Positions 20,022-33,294 of a DNA stretch of 33,294 bases are shown here, piece by piece. The translations under genes and the position numbers were made by a program. Source of the stretch: Bacteroidaceae bacterium (GTDB lineage Bacteria > Bacteroidota > Bacteroidia > Bacteroidales > Bacteroidaceae); contig JAFUVE010000024.1 in the NCBI GenBank assembly GCA_017483765.1, forward strand, positions 1 to 33,294. The letters run 5' to 3'. How positions within the stretch are numbered: the stretch's first letter is position 1; each line of letters opens with the position of its first letter. The notes beneath the pieces are model-generated. The model saw nothing but the letters and a program-made list of their open reading frames with translations. It made no database searches and was not told where the DNA came from.

Positions 20022-20034
<13 letters not shown>
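19932..20034. repeat. Dispersed intergenic repeat, copy A
   Basis: About 103 bases that recur with about seven differences at 23565-23674. It contains an inverted pair GTCTCG (19938-19943) and CGAGAC (19964-19969) and ends in a TTCACTTTTCACTT run. Its right end overlaps the last codons and the stop of metH. Confidence 0.8.
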
Positions 20035-22823
<2,789 letters not shown>

Positions 22824-22911
22824 TTGTTCCTCGTCTCTAAATTATTATGTTCTATTTGTAATCCATCCGCATGGAAATAATAAAATTCTAAAATGACCAA
22901 ATAAATTGGAA

Positions 22912-22973
22912 AACTTTGGAGCAGCGAATACATAGCTAAGCTTGCTTGAGCTATGTTGAGTCGTGACAAAGTT
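22912..22973. repeat. Hairpin element type A, copy 1
   Basis: Outer stem AACTTTG/CAAAGTT (22912-22918/22967-22973); left internal loop GAGCAGCGAAT; inner stem ACATAGCT/AGCTATGT (22930-22937/22949-22956); loop AAGCTTGCTTG; right internal loop TGAGTCGTGA. GCGA and TCGT inside the internal loops can also pair. It lies 25 bases after the smpB stop and about 90 before the metH start. An AAATAAAT occurs close to both ends but the region is AT-rich. Confidence 0.85.
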
Positions 22974-22998
22974 CATGAAATAAATAGTAAATCGTAAA

Positions 22999-23475
22999 TC
23001 ACAATAGTGCTTTGTACACTCGGTCCATCTCGCGGCGGTCTTCCTTCTCTTTCAGAGTCTGGCGTTTGTCGTACTCTTTCTTTCCCTTTGCCAGTGCGAT
23101 GTCGAGTTTGGCGAAGCCCTTCTCGTTGATGTGCAGCAGCACGGGCACGATAGTGTAGCCAGGAGATTTGATGTCCTGTGCCAGACTACGAAGCTCTTTT
23201 TTGTTGAGTAGCAGCTTGCGGTCGCGACGCTCCACGTGGTTGTTGTATGAGCCATAGCTGTACTGTGAGATGTGCATGTTCTTCACCCACAACTCGCCGT
23301 TCACGAAATAGCAGTAGGTGTCCACCAGACTGGCCTTGCCGTTACGGATGGACTTGATCTCCGTGCCGGTCAGAACGATGCCGGCGGTATACGTGTCTAC
23401 CAGAATATACTCAAATTCTGCGCGTTTGTTCTTTATGTTTACTTTTGATTTGTATGCTTGTTGTTTCTTTGCCAT
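22999..23475 (-). CDS. smpB: SsrA (tmRNA)-binding protein SmpB
   Basis: A 158-residue RNA-binding protein that carries tmRNA to stalled ribosomes in trans-translation. The OB-fold core is clear: [20 protein letters not shown], then [18 protein letters not shown] and the [14 protein letters not shown] stretch, with [18 protein letters not shown] as the basic C-terminal tail that enters the ribosome. Length is normal. It lies downstream of the DMP19-like gene with a repeat-bearing gap of about 215 bases. The tmRNA gene itself was not found in this window. Confidence 0.97.
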
Positions 23476-24197: not shown

Positions 24198-26195
24198 CTA
24201 TTTCAGCAGTCCGTTACGGTAGGCATATAGTAGCTTCTTGAGGTTCTCCACCTTCGACTGGATCACCTTTCCCTTGTCCGTGTCCTTCACGTACATCCGG
24301 TGCTCGCTCATCTCGACTATCTGCACGGCGCTTTTGATGTCATCGCCTTTCTTGATGGCTTCCTCGGCGCTGCGGAAGGGCTGGTGCTGCATCAGCTCGA
24401 GCCCACGGGAGTGGAATATCAGCGTGTAGCCGGCGATGCCCGTCTCGGGTTGGTAGGCTTTGGAGAAGCCGCCGTCGATGACGAGCAGCTTGCCGTTGGC
24501 CTTGATGGGGGTCTCGCCTTTCGTAGTCTTCACAGGCACATGGCCGTTGATGATATGGCGGTGCGTGCCCTCCACATCGAAGCTGTCGAGAATCATGTCG
24601 ATGGTTGCCTCGTCGTTGTTGTACTGGTAGTAGTAGCCTTTCTTTTCCTTGTGGGTCTTAGGGTCGGCTATGAAGTAGCGTTCGAAGGTGGCCATCTTGT
24701 CTTTGTCGAACAGCGGGGAGTCGGGGCCGCACCATAGGTACCACATGTAGTCGGTGCTGAAACGGCGTTTTTCTGCCGACAGTTCCGTGTTGAAGGCATT
24801 GCGGACGATGCGGTCGATTTTCTGCATCAGTTCTTTCCCTTTGTAAAGCTTGCCTTCTATCTCCACCTCTTTCAGCTGTCCGTCGGCGTTGAGGGGAACG
24901 GAGCCATGGAACATCAGGTTGGAGTTGCTCACCTTGTACATGCCGCCTCGTGAGAGCAGGCAGTCGATATGGCGACGAAGTTTCTCGCTGGCGCGGAAGG
25001 AATGCTCAATCTTTGTCATCAGTTTCTCTTCCTCCTTCGTCAGTTTGTTAGGAGAATCAGGGATGAGGGTGGGGAAGTTCGTGTCTTTGAGAGCATATAC
25101 TTTTCCTTCTATCTCTACGGTGCCCTCTTCCAGGTTGATATGCTCAAGCAGTTTGCGTCCCTCCATGCCGAATTCCGGACGTCGGTCGAGGATGCGGGCT
25201 TCTTCTTTGAACTGGATGATGGTGATGGCCTTGTGCATCTGGGTGAGCATCCGCATGGTCTGCTCGTCGAGGCTTCCGTCTTTGATGAGGTCTCTCACTG
25301 CGAACTCCGTGCAAGGGTCGTCCTTGTAGGTGTCCATAGCAAAGGTTGCGAGTGGAAGCAAGTTGATGCCGTAACCATCCTCCAGAGTCGACATGTTGCC
25401 ATAGCGCATGCACAAGCGAAGTACGTTGCATATGCAGGCACGGTTGCCTGCGCAGGCGCCTATCCATTCGATGTCGTGGTTGCCCCACACGATGTCGAAG
25501 TGCTTGTAGTCGCAGAGCGTGTCCATGATTTTGTCGGCGCCTGGACCACGGTCGTAGATGTCGCCAAGCAGATGCAAGCGGTCTATAGCCAGTCGCTGGA
25601 TGAGCTTGCTGATTTCGGTGATGAACGCGTCGGCGCGTCGGGTGTCGATGATGGACTCCACGATCATCTGGTAGTACTTATGCTTTTTCTCTCCATAGCC
25701 GCTGTATGACTCATGGAGAAGTTCCTCGATGATGTATTCGAAGTCCTTCGGCAGTTCTTTTCGGATTTTCGAGCGGGTGTATTTGGACGACACCTCCCGG
25801 CATACGCCAATCAGCCGGACAAGCGAGTTGCGGTAGAATTCGTTCAGGTCGCGCTTCTCCAGCTTCACCAGCTGCAGCTTCTGCTCAGGATAGTAAATCA
25901 AGGTGCACAGTTCCTTCTTCTCGGCCTTGTCGAGTGTGTCGCCGAAGAGCTCGTTCACTTTCCGTTTCACGTAGCCCGACGCATTGCGTAGCACGTGGTT
26001 GAAGGCATCGCTCTCACCGTGGGGATCGCTGATGAAGTGCTCCGTTGGCTTAGGAAGGTTCAGGATGGCCTCCAGATTGATGATTTCCGTGCTTGCGTCG
26101 GCTATCGTAGGGTAGGAGTGCGACAGCAGTTCCAGATAGCGAAGGTCCTGCTTTATCGACTCTTCTATTTGTTGTTTCGGATCCTTTTTCTCCAT
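24198..26195 (-). CDS. fbp: Class III fructose-1,6-bisphosphatase
   Basis: A 665-residue gluconeogenic phosphatase that removes the 1-phosphate of fructose 1,6-bisphosphate. It belongs to the metallophosphoesterase-type class III found in Firmicutes and Bacteroidota, not to the usual class I. Metal ligands are visible in HFISDPHGESDAF (residues 53-65), HLLGDIYDRGPG and IVWGNHDIEWIG; a further His lies in RHIINGHVPV near the end. Length is normal. The ATG at 26195 was chosen over an in-frame TTG at 26243 because it gives MEKKDPKQQ and sits about 18 bases from a consensus -7 box. It leads a probable two-gene unit with the DMP19-like gene. Confidence 0.96.
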   Translation of the reverse strand: MEKKDPKQQIEESIKQDLRYLELLSHSYPTIADASTEIINLEAILNLPKPTEHFISDPHGESDAFNHVLRNASGYVKRKVNELFGDTLDKAEKKELCTLIYYPEQKLQLVKLEKRDLNEFYRNSLVRLIGVCREVSSKYTRSKIRKELPKDFEYIIEELLHESYSGYGEKKHKYYQMIVESIIDTRRADAFITEISKLIQRLAIDRLHLLGDIYDRGPGADKIMDTLCDYKHFDIVWGNHDIEWIGACAGNRACICNVLRLCMRYGNMSTLEDGYGINLLPLATFAMDTYKDDPCTEFAVRDLIKDGSLDEQTMRMLTQMHKAITIIQFKEEARILDRRPEFGMEGRKLLEHINLEEGTVEIEGKVYALKDTNFPTLIPDSPNKLTKEEEKLMTKIEHSFRASEKLRRHIDCLLSRGGMYKVSNSNLMFHGSVPLNADGQLKEVEIEGKLYKGKELMQKIDRIVRNAFNTELSAEKRRFSTDYMWYLWCGPDSPLFDKDKMATFERYFIADPKTHKEKKGYYYQYNNDEATIDMILDSFDVEGTHRHIINGHVPVKTTKGETPIKANGKLLVIDGGFSKAYQPETGIAGYTLIFHSRGLELMQHQPFRSAEEAIKKGDDIKSAVQIVEMSEHRMYVKDTDKGKVIQSKVENLKKLLYAYRNGLLK

Positions 26196-26212
26196 TTTTT
26201 TGCAATTATTTG

Positions 26213-26244
26213 CAAATTTACGATTAAGCGAGCACAAAAGCAAA
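26213..26244 (-). promoter_or_regulatory. Consensus promoter of fbp
   Basis: On the minus strand TTTG (26241-26244), 20 bases, TAAATTTG (26213-26220): a full match. The spacer and -33 box lie inside a 26-base segment that is repeated at 26307-26332. Confidence 0.8.
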
Positions 26245-26289
26245 TAAAAACGAAGTTTTTAATTTGATTTTGTCGAGCGATAGTAAATT
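26215..26289. repeat. Hairpin element type B over the fbp promoter
   Basis: Outer stem AATTTAC/GTAAATT (26215-26221/26283-26289), left internal loop beginning GATTAAGCGAGC, and a long AT-rich inner stem made of the halves around AAAAACGAAGTTTTT, closed by ACAAAA/TTTTGT. The type shares GATTAAGC and the 7-bp outer stem with the element at 33071-33133. The fbp promoter is contained in its left half. Confidence 0.6.
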
Positions 26290-26306
26290 CGAGCGCAGCT
26301 CAAATA

Positions 26307-26420
26307 ACGATTAAGCGAGCACAAAAGCAAATTTTGGAGCAGCGAATGCAAAATATGCTCGCATATTTTGCTGAGTCGCGACAAAATTCGGCGGAGACAA
26401 ATAAAAACGAAGTTTTTAAT
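26307..26420. repeat. Partial type B copy interrupted by a type A element
   Basis: 26307-26332 repeats 26220-26245 exactly (26 bases) and 26398-26420 repeats 26241-26263 exactly (23 bases). In the first copy these halves are continuous and share CAAAT; in this copy 65 bases (26333-26397) lie between them and CAAAT is present on both sides. This looks like an insertion with a 5-bp target duplication. Confidence 0.75.
26330..26388. repeat. Hairpin element type A, copy 2
   Basis: Outer stem AATTTTG/CAAAATT (26330-26336/26382-26388); left internal loop GAGCAGCGAAT; perfect inner stem GCAAAATATGC/GCATATTTTGC (26348-26358/26361-26371) with a two-base loop; right internal loop TGAGTCGCGA. Compared with copy 1 the TCGT is TCGC, changing a G-U into a G-C pair with GCGA. 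It is the copy that interrupts the type B segment. Confidence 0.85.
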
Positions 26421-26425
26421 CACAA

Positions 26426-26462
26426 AAAAACAAGGCCACCGTTATGTGCTGACCTTGTTTTT
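26426..26462 (-). terminator. Terminator of the Spy-like gene
   Basis: AAAAACAAGG (26426-26435) and CCTTGTTTTT (26453-26462) form a ten-pair stem; on the minus strand it continues into further T residues. It starts 12 bases after the stop at 26475. Confidence 0.8.
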
Positions 26463-26474
26463 GGAACTTTTTAT

Positions 26475-26957
26475 TTAGTGTTGATGTCCACCTCCGCCTG
26501 GACCTCGTCGTCCGCCTCCGCGGCGGGGGTTGAACCGGTTGAGGGCCTCGCGGTTGAATTTGTAAAGTGCAGCACGCACTTTGAACACCTTTTCCCAACT
26601 CATCACTGTATGGAACTTCTTGTAATAAGTCTCTTCTATCCGGCGGTTCTCAACATCCAGCTCCAACAGCTGCTTCACTGCTGTTCCGTACTCCGACTCT
26701 GTCGTTCCTTCACCGCAAGAACGGATGATGTCGAAGCTTTTGCGGTTATTCTTGTGCTGCTCGTCCATCATCTCCTTCATCAAGGGGATGAATCCGTCGG
26801 CTTCTTCTGTAGTCAGTCCGGCTTCACGCGCTACGAATTCTTTCAGGTTTTTCCAGTATTCCTCAGGAGAGAAGTCACGACGCTGAGGGTGGTTGCCCTG
26901 GGCTATGGCAGCCATGCTGACGCATAACAGTAATATGTTGATTAAAATCCGTTTCAT
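26475..26957 (-). CDS. Spy/CpxP-like small periplasmic protein
   Basis: A 160-residue exported protein with signal peptide MKRILINILLLCVSMAAIAQ. The mature part is helical and charged (FSPEEYWKNLKEFVAREAGLT, then EEADGFIPLMKEMMDEQ and a WEKVFKVRAALYKFNREALNRF helix), resembling Bacteroidota relatives of the Spy/CpxP envelope chaperones, though the LTxxQ motif is not clear. The tail is Gly/Arg-rich with terminal His (RGGGRRGPGGGGHQH), possibly metal-binding. It is the third gene after an ECF sigma factor and a membrane anti-sigma-like protein, which fits an envelope-stress unit. Family assignment is moderate. Confidence 0.65.
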   Translation of the reverse strand: MKRILINILLLCVSMAAIAQGNHPQRRDFSPEEYWKNLKEFVAREAGLTTEEADGFIPLMKEMMDEQHKNNRKSFDIIRSCGEGTTESEYGTAVKQLLELDVENRRIEETYYKKFHTVMSWEKVFKVRAALYKFNREALNRFNPRRGGGRRGPGGGGHQH

Positions 26958-29360: not shown

Positions 29361-29392
29361 CTTGGCGGTGTCAAATATTTTTTGTACCTTTG
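29361..29392 (+). promoter_or_regulatory. Promoter of the transposase gene
   Basis: CTTG (29361-29364), 20 bases, TACCTTTG (29385-29392). The -7 box is exact, and the -33 box is one base off. It overlaps the inner inverted repeat of the element. Confidence 0.6.
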
Positions 29393-29421
29393 TAGTATAT
29401 TGTAGAATATACTTAATTATT

Positions 29422-31233
29422 ATGCATTTATCACCATCAAAGCCCCAGGAGGGCAAAATCTATTACATAGCCAAGTCTTTCCGTAACGACCGTGGCGTGA
29501 GTACAAAGAAGAACGTGCGCCGCCTTGGCACCCTGGCCGAAATCCGCGAGCGCGAGGGCGTGTCAGACGCATGGGCCTGGGCAAAGTCCCAGCTTGAGAC
29601 AGAGAACTCAAATGACGCCATGAACCAGCGTGCGGTCACCATCAGGCTCCATGCCGGCAAAATCATCGGGAAGGACGAGCGGCGCTCCTACAACGTCGGC
29701 TACCTGATACTCAACAAGCTGTATTACGCTCTTGGGATGGACAAGATCTGCGCAGGCATCATGCGCCGGTGCAAGTCCAAGTTCGACCTGAACGAGATAC
29801 TCCGGCAACTGGTCCTGTGCCGCATCTTATGGCCTTCCTCCAAACTGGAGACATGGAAGCAGTCACGCTCGCTTGCCTTGGTCAAACCGGTTGAGCTGCA
29901 TCAGATTTACCGTGCCCTGCTGTCAATCGAGAGCCACATGGACTATCTGCAGGAACGCATGTTCCATTACAGCAAGGACATGCTTGAGCGAAACACGTCC
30001 GTCATCTACTACGACTGCACAAACTTCTTCTACGAATCCACGCGGGAGACCGTCCTGAGACGCCCCGGAGCATCAAAGGAGAACAGGCGCACCCCAATCG
30101 TGCAGATGGGCGTCTTCATGGATGCGGACGGGCTGCCACTGGCGTTCAACATAAACCCAGGCAACACAAACGAGCAAAAGACGCTGCTGCCCACGGAGAA
30201 AATGATTGGAGAGCGTATGGAGATAGAGGAGTTCATCATGTGCACGGACGCAGGCCTGTCGTCAGGGAGCAACAAGCTGTACAACGACACCGACCAGAGG
30301 AAGTTCATCACGGTCCAGTCCGTGAAGGCGCTGCCCAACACGGCGGGAGGGAAAAAAAGCCCGGGAAGGATAAAGGACTGGGCGATGGAGGACGGAGGGT
30401 GGATGCTTCCGGGCGACACGGAAAAAAAATATGCGATGGAAGAGATACGGAAGCAGGAGAACCGAGATTTGTTTTACGACCGCACATTCTATAAGGAAAG
30501 ATGGATCAAGACGTGGGTCAGGGACACGCAGACGGGGAAAGAGCGCGAGCTGGAGCAACGACTGGTCGTGTCCTTCTCCTTGAAGTACATGGAATACCAA
30601 AGGCATAAGAGACTTCAGAACATCGAAAAGGCGGAGAAGGCGATTGCCAACGGAAATGCGGCAGACCCGCCAAAGAACTTCAGAAGCTACATTGTCTCCG
30701 ACAAATGCACGGAGGACGGCGAGCTTGCCATGGTCAACGCGGGATTCAGAATCGACGGACAGAGAGTCGAGGAAGAGGAAAAATACGACGGGTTCTATGC
30801 TATCTGCACAAACCTGGCGCATTACACGGACAAATCGGGAAAGACGCACCACACCATAACCGACCTGCTGAAAATAAACAGGGCAAGGTGGGAAATAGAG
30901 GAGTCGTTCAGAATAATGAAGACCCAAATGAAAGCACGTCCTGTCTACCACAGGACGGACAGGGCAATAAAGGCACACTTTGCCACATGCTTCGTGGCAC
31001 TGTTCCTATACAGGGTGCTGGAACACAAACTTGGAGAAACCGCAACGACCAACGAAATCATAAACACGATCAGGGACATGAATGCATGGTATATACCATC
31101 TGAAGGATTTGTGCCGACATTCACAAGAACAAGCCTGACAGACAAATTGTTTGAAATCAGCGGATTTAGATTAGACACTGAAATCATAACGTTAAAAAAA
31201 CTTAAATCAATTTTGGCGATGACGAAAGGGTAG
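29422..31233 (+). CDS. IS1634 family DDE transposase
   Basis: A 603-residue transposase of the IS4-like/IS1634 group. An N-terminal segment (GKIYYIAKSFRNDRGVSTKK) typical of the family is followed by a split DDE catalytic core: YYDCTNFF with Asp198, FIMCTDAGLSSGSNK with Asp276, a long insertion (about residues 300-450), and RARWEIEESFRIMKTQ with the third acid near residue 493-494. The frame is intact, so the element may be active. The ATG at 29422 was chosen over an upstream in-frame TTG near 29350 because the TTG lies before the promoter and inner repeat. A terminator follows inside the element. Confidence 0.93.
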   Translation: MHLSPSKPQEGKIYYIAKSFRNDRGVSTKKNVRRLGTLAEIREREGVSDAWAWAKSQLETENSNDAMNQRAVTIRLHAGKIIGKDERRSYNVGYLILNKLYYALGMDKICAGIMRRCKSKFDLNEILRQLVLCRILWPSSKLETWKQSRSLALVKPVELHQIYRALLSIESHMDYLQERMFHYSKDMLERNTSVIYYDCTNFFYESTRETVLRRPGASKENRRTPIVQMGVFMDADGLPLAFNINPGNTNEQKTLLPTEKMIGERMEIEEFIMCTDAGLSSGSNKLYNDTDQRKFITVQSVKALPNTAGGKKSPGRIKDWAMEDGGWMLPGDTEKKYAMEEIRKQENRDLFYDRTFYKERWIKTWVRDTQTGKERELEQRLVVSFSLKYMEYQRHKRLQNIEKAEKAIANGNAADPPKNFRSYIVSDKCTEDGELAMVNAGFRIDGQRVEEEEKYDGFYAICTNLAHYTDKSGKTHHTITDLLKINRARWEIEESFRIMKTQMKARPVYHRTDRAIKAHFATCFVALFLYRVLEHKLGETATTNEIINTIRDMNAWYIPSEGFVPTFTRTSLTDKLFEISGFRLDTEIITLKKLKSILAMTKG

Positions 31234-31260
31234 ATATACTACAAAGTTTGAAAAAGGGAA

Positions 31261-32705: not shown

Positions 32706-32785
32706 AATTCAGAGCATAATTTTCTTGCCATTCCTGCTATTTTTTCCATCCACCGTTGCAACCCATGCGTAGGAAGCGAACTCTC

Positions 32786-32904
32786 CAGACTTTGCAAGTA
32801 AAAACGAGTCTGATACGTACCAAGCCCAACACATGAAAACAATTATTTTGGGCGTACGTATCCGGAGCGGCGTACGTGTAAAAACAGATTTTTCACCTCC
32901 TACT
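32786..32904. repeat. 119-base direct repeat, copy 1
   Basis: Identical to 33176-33294. It contains a CAGACT/AGTCTG hairpin (32786-32791/32807-32812) and a larger one: ATACGTAC and GCCCAA (32813-32820, 32824-32829) with TTGGGC and GTACGTAT (32848-32853, 32854-32861), interrupted by one three-base bulge. No gene is visible from 32706 to the end of the window; the whole stretch is palindromic. Confidence 0.9.
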
Positions 32905-32946
32905 ACTCCGTTGTACAGCCAGTCGGGCTTGGATACCAGTAGGAGG
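32896..32946. repeat. Hairpin bridging the 119-base repeat and the type A elements
   Basis: CCTCCTACT (32896-32904) pairs with AGTAGGAGG (32938-32946), nine pairs. The left arm is exactly the right end of the 119-base repeat, so the second copy stops in the middle of this hairpin where the window ends. Confidence 0.7.
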
Positions 32947-32949
32947 CGA

Positions 32950-33011
32950 GATTCTGGAGCAGCGAACGAAATGCCAAGCTTGCTTGGGCAATTCTGAGTC
33001 GTGACAGAATC
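32950..33011. repeat. Hairpin element type A, copy 3
   Basis: Outer stem GATTCTG/CAGAATC (32950-32956/33005-33011); left internal loop GAGCAGCGAAC; inner stem GAAATGCC/GGCAATTC (32968-32975/32987-32994, one A-A mismatch); loop AAGCTTGCTTG; right internal loop TGAGTCGTGA. It is followed by CCTGCGAAGCGAA, which also follows the next copy. Confidence 0.85.
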
Positions 33012-33022
33012 CTGCGAAGCGA

Positions 33023-33158
33023 AATTCTGGAGCAGCGAACGAAATGCCAAGCTTGCTTGAGCATTACTGAAACTTCCGATTAAGCCGAATGTAATGCCAA
33101 GCTTGCTTGAGCATTACTGAGGCGTAGGAAGTTCGCCGTAGGCAATCGTGACAGAATC
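33023..33158. repeat. Hairpin element type A, copy 4, interrupted by a type B element
   Basis: AATTCTG (33023-33029), GAGCAGCGAAC, stem and loop as in copy 3 up to TGA at 33070; then a type B element with a short tail is inserted, and the rest of copy 4 (TCGTGACAGAATCC) resumes near 33146. ATTCTG and CAGAAT still pair across the insertion. Confidence 0.7.
33071..33133. repeat. Hairpin element type B, copy 2
   Basis: Outer stem AACTTCC/GGAAGTT (33071-33077/33127-33133); left internal loop GATTAAGCCGAAT; inner stem GTAATGC/GCATTAC (33091-33097/33111-33117); loop CAAGCTTGCTTGA; right internal loop TGAGGCGTA. GCC and GGC inside the internal loops can pair. The stretch AATGCCAAGCTTGCTTGAGC, with eight more bases, occurs both here (33093-33120) and in the host copy (33043-33070). 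Confidence 0.75.
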
Positions 33159-33175
33159 CTGCGAAGCGAAATTTT

Positions 33176-33294
33176 CAGACTTTGCAAGTAAAAACGAGTC
33201 TGATACGTACCAAGCCCAACACATGAAAACAATTATTTTGGGCGTACGTATCCGGAGCGGCGTACGTGTAAAAACAGATTTTTCACCTCCTACT
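33176..33294. repeat. 119-base direct repeat, copy 2, at the window end
   Basis: Exact second copy of 32786-32904, offset by 390 bases. The window stops at its last base. A repeat that ends exactly at a sequence end can be a sign of an assembly graph loop, so the real number of 390-base units is uncertain. Confidence 0.9.

Follow-up and report, generated by a model that had tools for sequence, protein, structure and literature searches.

Palindrome-associated (PATE) elements are derivatives of IS200/IS605, and a MITE of Porphyromonas gingivalis is reportedly a short non-autonomous repeat with inverted arms in Bacteroidales. In the available part of PMC6006769, genes of subclass 2.6, found mostly in Bacteroidetes, are described as flanked by atypical structures without GTAG that have copies elsewhere in the genome, and genes of subclass 1.2 as generally without typical terminal structures. 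For the GTAG- and CGTC-tagged palindromic repeats, the available part of PMC3733652 describes a tag at one hairpin end and neither a second hairpin nor arms of free sequence. The repeats reported here, designated families A, B and C, were found in the window, the whole stretch of 33,294 nt of Bacteroidaceae DNA that was analysed (contig JAFUVE010000024.1). Rfam gave no match in the window at gathering score; at E<=1 there was none in 22800-23100, and one chance-level mir-19 match over a family C part was found in 26150-26480. No description of these repeats was found in the open-access literature searched (supplements excluded), and the opinion of the sequence-only reading that they match no named element stood in both searches. 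According to the available part of PMC8040213, its supplements hold thousands of candidate structured RNAs, and family A may sit unnamed among them.

The elements of the window are given below; R1 is the covariance model made from 79 family A copies, and R2 is the family C model, the family C set being 12 copies.

22912..22973, + strand, family A copy 1; R1 85.0 bits, model span 22909-22994
26331..26400, + strand, family A copy 2, with decayed second hairpin and terminal AA; R1 80.0 bits, 26327-26409
32950..33023, + strand, family A copy 3, with second hairpin TGC-GAA-GCG (33013-33021) and terminal AA; R1 67.8 bits
33024..33170, + strand, family A copy 4, its right block split by a family B element; repeat comparison and R1
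33071..33144, + strand, family B element; R2 43.4 bits, 33069-33156; fold z -2.8
26213..26313, + strand, family C element; R2 64.8 bits, E 9e-13
26301..26420, + strand, second family C copy, apparently incomplete, host of family A copy 2; repeats D8 and D12

Copies 1 to 3 had been placed correctly by the sequence-only reading. Of the inner stems it proposed, that of copy 3, with the two sides GAAATGCC and GGCAATTC, contained one mismatch. The spacing was not identical as had been claimed, the block-to-block part being 25 nt in copy 2 compared to 28 nt in copies 1 and 3, and the 3' ends had been set too early: the element continues into a second small hairpin, which was readable in copy 3, had decayed in copy 2 and could not be recognised in copy 1. 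Copy 1, with stems AACTTTG/CAAAGTT and ACATAGC/GCTATGT, lies between smpB (22999-23475, - strand) and metH (20022-22823, - strand). Copy 2 is an insertion within a family C copy, with CAA (26328-26330) directly before it, and a paralogous empty site, GCAAAT followed directly by AAAAACG, is present beside it at 26240-26252.

Copy 4 consists of an A left part (33024-33070), an A right part (~33145-33157) and a second hairpin (33160-33168), followed by AA. The inserted family B element is arranged as AACTTCC - GATTAAGCCGAAT - inner hairpin - TGAGGCGTA - GGAAGTT, with the second hairpin GCC-GTA-GGC, and the family C element of the window has the arms AATTTAC/GTAAATT, the left block GATTAAGCGAG, the right block CGAGCGATA and the second hairpin GAGC-GCA-GCTC. 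A 132-nt repeat was also observed in the window (32773-33294), its units 98% identical and 390 nt apart; it reaches the window end, and the contig break there may be repeat-caused. An IS1634-family transposase gene occupies 29389-31233; inverted repeats of 22 nt, 86% complementary to each other, lie at 29379-29400 and 31234-31255.

The exact two-block pattern gave 13 matches in the 3.13-Mb genome of origin and none when read backwards. The covariance model, which the sequence-only reading had proposed to build and search with, gave 130 matches (E<=0.01; 150 candidates scored) in the same genome, and of 81 related genomes 24 had hits; copies per genome within one genus ranged from 0 to at least 55 by R1, and 3 of 32 genomes of other families had a single R1 match each. 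The two-block pattern was present in at least 114 stretches in named genomes and on one viral contig. Among the 80 titled rows listed, 79 bore Bacteroidales names (Prevotella, Prevotellaceae, Bacteroidaceae and others), many of them from ruminant guts, and one was from Planctomycetes. Copies were also present in the culturable Xylanibacter ruminicola D31d. The latter (L021) has no outer stem and was taken as chance; it was excluded from the A1 alignment described below and from the GC-skew, geometry, end-agreement and target tests, and kept in the neighbour-orientation, relaxed-set and flank-string counts. Family A copies were located mostly between genes (simple ORF rule, part of the copies), tandem copies occurred at 75-nt spacing, and several copies sit at contig ends, including the window's own end. 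Left blocks numbered 61 in genome G000 and 41 in genome G012; among the 22 that were read, in 20 stretches, 18 had a right half within ~200 nt, either whole, variant or interrupted by B, 3 ran off contig ends and one (L265) had no right half within 400 nt. Families A, B and C occur across a part of the Bacteroidales, and many of the carriers come from ruminant guts.

The fold was assessed in A1, an alignment of 79 of the 143 exact-pattern rows from which L021, short-flanked copies and near duplicates had been dropped. Pairing was found in 90.3% of the cells in A1 compared to 75.1% in shuffles, 18 of the 22 pairs were altered on both sides, and two-sided changed cells amounted to 245, compared to 78 in shuffled and 42-66 in slid versions. 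These findings bear out the earlier proposal of stem covariation from selection on the fold, and that the family A fold is under selection is supported. The mid-stem GCGA/TCGY was nearly invariant in A1 because the search pattern fixed those bases, and its G-U/G-C freedom favours the given strand. In a relaxed set of 159 unique copies, L021 included, in which either of two bases was permitted per side, the next pair inward, not forced by the pattern, was A-T in 122, G-C in 36 and A-C in 1. The loops had been described as fixed; their blocks were indeed conserved, but this covariation indicates a real pair within them, leaving a GAG bulge on the 3' side. Folding of the window copies as single-strand DNA gave z values against shuffles of -2.4, -2.1 and 0.04 for copies 1, 2 and 3, respectively, the predicted fold of copy 3 being no better than shuffles. 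For L143, z was -1.4 and the best predicted fold was without the inner hairpin. By eye, neither GTAG nor GTGG was seen at the 5' foot of the 79 A1 rows, which start with flank, arm and GAGCAGCGAA; this block was forced in A1 by the search pattern, and the relaxed set adds GCGAG forms only. The consensus boxes of the integron attC and of the kink-turn did not fit by eye.

Insertion geometry was determined in 126 non-redundant copies, short-flanked and duplicate rows having been dropped. AA was found exactly 6 nt 5' of the left block in 113 of the 126 compared to a far-flank background of 11%, and (G/C)AA at the same offset in 99 compared to 5%. Because copies with the ATTTTG arm, the commonest (49), often sit in family C, the count was repeated without them and gave 67/77 for AA and 56/77 for (G/C)AA; with one copy per arm, the values were 26/33 and 20/33, respectively. 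The second hairpin, hairpin B, was present in 84/126 copies compared to 15/126 with shuffled tails, and was not found in 42/126. It began at a single start offset in 68 of the 84 and was directly followed by AA in 71, its loop being most often GAA, AAA or GTA. The element thus comprises a 6-nt left arm, left block, inner hairpin, right block, 6-nt right arm, 2-nt linker, often hairpin B, and AA, and these offsets give as the typical unit, after (G/C)AA, arm - GAGCAGCGAR - inner hairpin - YGAGTCGYGA - arm - 2 nt - hairpin B - AA.

Insertion mostly occurs 3' of a fixed short target, (G/C)AA, with only partial end agreement around AA; outside the ATTTTG class, the bases before AA at the two ends did not match (p 0.095 for 1 nt, 0.21 for 3 nt). 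The longest string that the left flank shared with the stretch following the right arm had a mean of 5.71 compared to 4.69 (sd 0.09) in 153 copies. A simple fixed-length target duplication was suggested by these shared strings but weakened by the inconsistent flank match around AA. The left arm matched the host sequence right of the insertion at 2.94 of 6 positions compared to 2.06 (sd 0.13) in 47 pairs, with a peak at register 0 (z 6.7; next best register 3.3). Without TTTTG arms, the 23 remaining pairs gave 2.48 compared to 1.56 (sd 0.20; z 4.5; next best 2.2). This arm-target test was devised after the data had been seen, with tandem copies and L145 also dropped, and the match was almost nil at some sites (etfBA). 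In the predicted DNA fold of L059, a family C copy, the right arm pairs with the right-hand copy and not with the left. Together, the target likeness and this fold suggest that the right arm is possibly a shared guide.

Occupancy of orthologous sites was compared at two junctions. At smpB-metH, 30 loci were fetched, of which 22 had both genes; the element was present in 2 (the genome of origin and the 95%-identical G012) and absent in 18, the other 2 being unread long gaps. In L226, one of the 18, the gap contained a lone GAGCAGCGAA without the remainder of the element. At etfB-etfA, six filled loci were obtained from the pattern matches in named genomes, and 30 further loci were taken from genomes with a match, which numbered 354 of 399. 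The gap was <=23 nt in 19 of these 30 (for instance TAATTGAGATATGAAC in L303), and the element was not seen in the printed junctions of any of the 30, L328 being printed in part. Filled sites read ATGAA, element, ...ATGAAC, except for L041 with ATGTA at the left, and therefore both the etfB stop and the etfA start are kept. All 27 pairs were kept in the six orthologous copies (162/162 cells), with two pairs changed on both sides. Blast of joined flanks yielded further empty sites. These findings show that family A is mobile.

The sequence around window copy 2 was found to be itself a folded repeat, family C. R2 gave C-like matches in 29/81 genomes, and it also detected family B, both in the window and in L014, as well as some A copies, which scored lower; in turn, R1 scored the L014 family B copy at 33.5 bits. 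Since no B sequence entered R1 or R2, this cross-detection is read as homology, and A, B and C are read as at least three homologous families. Family B sits at one site in the A right block, the same A/B composite as copy 4 being present in L014 and in 14 of the 22 left blocks read in G000 and G012, which were picked mainly for no, weak or shifted model match. Among R2 matches of >=60 bits, 8/37 span an A inside a C, two of which (L024 and L060) are the same site in two genomes. Both A and C matches were found in 20 genomes, only A in 4, only C in 9 and neither in 48 (p 1e-8, kinship ignored); since some A and B copies are also hit by R2, this co-occurrence is in part overstated. The outer helix of family C is biased because its copies were chosen partly for arm complementarity.

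Family C copies (window 26213-26313, L059, L116, L332 and others) carry CAAANNTA and CAAA at promoter spacing. These are the reverse complement of the -7 TAnnTTTG and -33 TTTG boxes, given as the Bacteroidetes-type promoter consensus in the available part of PMC7366714. The box pair was present in 26 of 36 family C copies, a count that is partly circular because many copies behind the model share these letters, and the left neighbour was transcribed away from the element in 24/31 (simple ORF rule). The check covered 36 of the 74 R2 matches and left out the higher-scoring L329 1515-1589 and L019 5735-5811. The boxes suggest that family C is possibly a mobile promoter.

A Y1 transposase (PF01797) was detected in 44/81 genomes and undetected in 4 of the 11 genomes, themselves incomplete, with 11 or more copies. 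In two sets of Y1 loci, both of which include L014 and L015, R1 matches were found in 1/32 and 2/20 and R2 matches in 2/32 and 2/20, respectively; L341 in the 20-locus set had been chosen knowing of a nearby A copy, and a motif pattern recognised the Y1 protein in 13 of these 20. The R1 matches of L341 are 0.6 and 1.2 kb from the frame with the Y1 domain. The association in L014 was promising for Y1 as the mobiliser, but the R1 match there is an insertion within the Y1 gene's own flanking repeat, and this candidate was unsupported overall. Within the family, A and PF01797 co-occurred (14/21 compared to 6/28, p 0.003, kinship ignored), with p 0.086 for all 81 genomes. IS608-type elements are described, in the available part of the source, as targeting one replication strand; no bias of family A strand was seen against GC skew (38/84 positive, p 0.79), and a lagging-strand bias was rejected.

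Several Y1 genes have repeats of other kinds at their sides. In L014 (~700-2100, G000 contig C62), a RAYT-like gene lies between long direct repeats with a GGAG-CCGACG..CGTCGG hairpin, which are likely the gene's own repeat family. In L341 (1404-4967, relative G010), a RAYT-like tyrosine-transposase domain is in frame inside a 1188-codon reading frame, which looks like a DNA methyltransferase and which is flanked by repeats encoding NRSAGVSPASxITAGGT. In L201, L203, L214 and L215, subclass-1.2-like Y1 genes (Y motif then HH) are flanked by short hairpins such as GCCCCTTCGGGGC, and these flanking hairpins of the relatives differ from family A.

Family A is probably a non-autonomous mobile DNA repeat of ~70-80 nt whose folded strand is recognised in the manner of a REP or of an IS200/IS605 end. 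What was observed directly is the fold of two hairpins with its covariation, the usual geometry, the presence and absence at sites, the nesting and the A/B/C cross-detection. Among the three functional options of the sequence-only reading, the best fit is the small non-autonomous element that moves in the form of a folded strand, and the transcript-end element was unsupported. The copy at the etfB-etfA junction would need read-through, which argues against a transcript-end role, and a transcription terminator or an RNA tied to one gene was rejected on this position, on site occupancy at both junctions, with absence from 18/22 smpB-metH loci, and on mixed neighbour orientation. For 88 copies with both neighbours within 600 nt (simple ORF rule), the orientation was (-,-) in 29, (-,+) in 27, (+,+) in 16 and (+,-) in 16. 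The same counts bear on a host-function structured RNA (an mRNA stabiliser, attenuator or protein-binding site) that has spread as a repeat and whose fold is kept for its RNA role. The strand preference at the mid-stem favours it, as do the etfB-etfA copies with every pair cell kept; their in-place compensatory changes would also fit a host-level role and were counted against the mobile repeat. However, with mixed orientation, few occupied sites in the genomes read, regular insertion geometry, nesting and no Rfam match, we consider this quite unlikely.

A MITE that a DDE transposase moves in double-stranded form, its terminal inverted repeats being the outer arms, would account for the complementarity of these arms and for the short strings shared by left flank and post-right-arm sequence. 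It is improbable, however: the arms differ from one subfamily to another and conservation is found in the internal blocks, the opposite of what a terminal-repeat element shows; in the 84 copies that have hairpin B this hairpin is located beyond the right arm, so that the arms are not the element ends; and flank duplication around AA is inconsistent. Equally improbable is an atypical REP mobilised by a Bacteroidetes subclass 2.6 tyrosine transposase (TnpA-REP), even though the GTAG-less flanking structures with copies elsewhere (available part of PMC6006769) and the within-family co-occurrence with PF01797 are in its favour. Against it are the rarity of family A matches in Y1 loci, the copy-rich genomes without a PF01797 match, and L352 and L353, which have the subclass 2.6 motif YIHQNP and showed neither R1 nor R2 matches.

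If family A is such a mobile repeat, its mobilising enzyme would act in trans and probably recognises the folded single strand. The right arm comes just before hairpin B, the place that a guide takes in an IS200/IS605 right end, and it may have two pairing states, one with the left flank and the other with the target or right end. A stronger form, a self-guiding repeat in which one arm sets both ends via hairpins A and B and picks targets resembling the left arm, with an enzyme in trans and with family C planting promoters upstream of genes, is rather doubtful, and we put it forward tentatively. The repeats are carried by many ruminant-gut Prevotella-type genomes at gene ends, operon junctions and promoters, and they may break assemblies, several copies being at contig ends. 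Outside the GTAG-REP world they offer a model for folded mobile repeats in which an insertion rule is predicted and a single guide is possible, and family C could be a source of mobile promoters.

Compared to known systems, family A is REP-like in its behaviour and is not a REP member by the features tested. With REP and the subclass 2.6 RAYT/TnpA-REP systems, as described in the available part of PMC6006769, it shares small folded repeats in many copies, patchy among relatives, tandem and nested arrays, and a fold with bulges; the many folded copies per genome expected of REP were found. Unlike REP, it has no GTAG/GTGG foot, it carries a second hairpin, often with a GAA-type loop, its usual ends are (G/C)AA ... 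AA, and its copies were rarely beside the transposase genes examined rather than flanking a cognate tyrosine-transposase gene. With the GTAG- and CGTC-tagged repeats (PMC3733652, available part) it has in common the short hairpin repeat, and CGTC repeats likewise occur without a known transposase. With MITEs it shares small size, non-autonomy, inverted arms and occurrence in Bacteroidales; in contrast to them, its outer arms are neither the ends nor conserved, the conserved parts are internal, and conserved terminal inverted repeats with a constant-length duplication were not found. With IS200/IS605 ends and PATE it shares insertion 3' of a short target and non-autonomous copies, together with the right-end order of guide, hairpin and terminal nucleotides (for the guide, available part of PMC6006769). 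It differs from IS200/IS605 in that no autonomous copy was seen among the left blocks read, no guide precedes the left hairpin on its 5' side at the left end, and one right arm may serve both ends.
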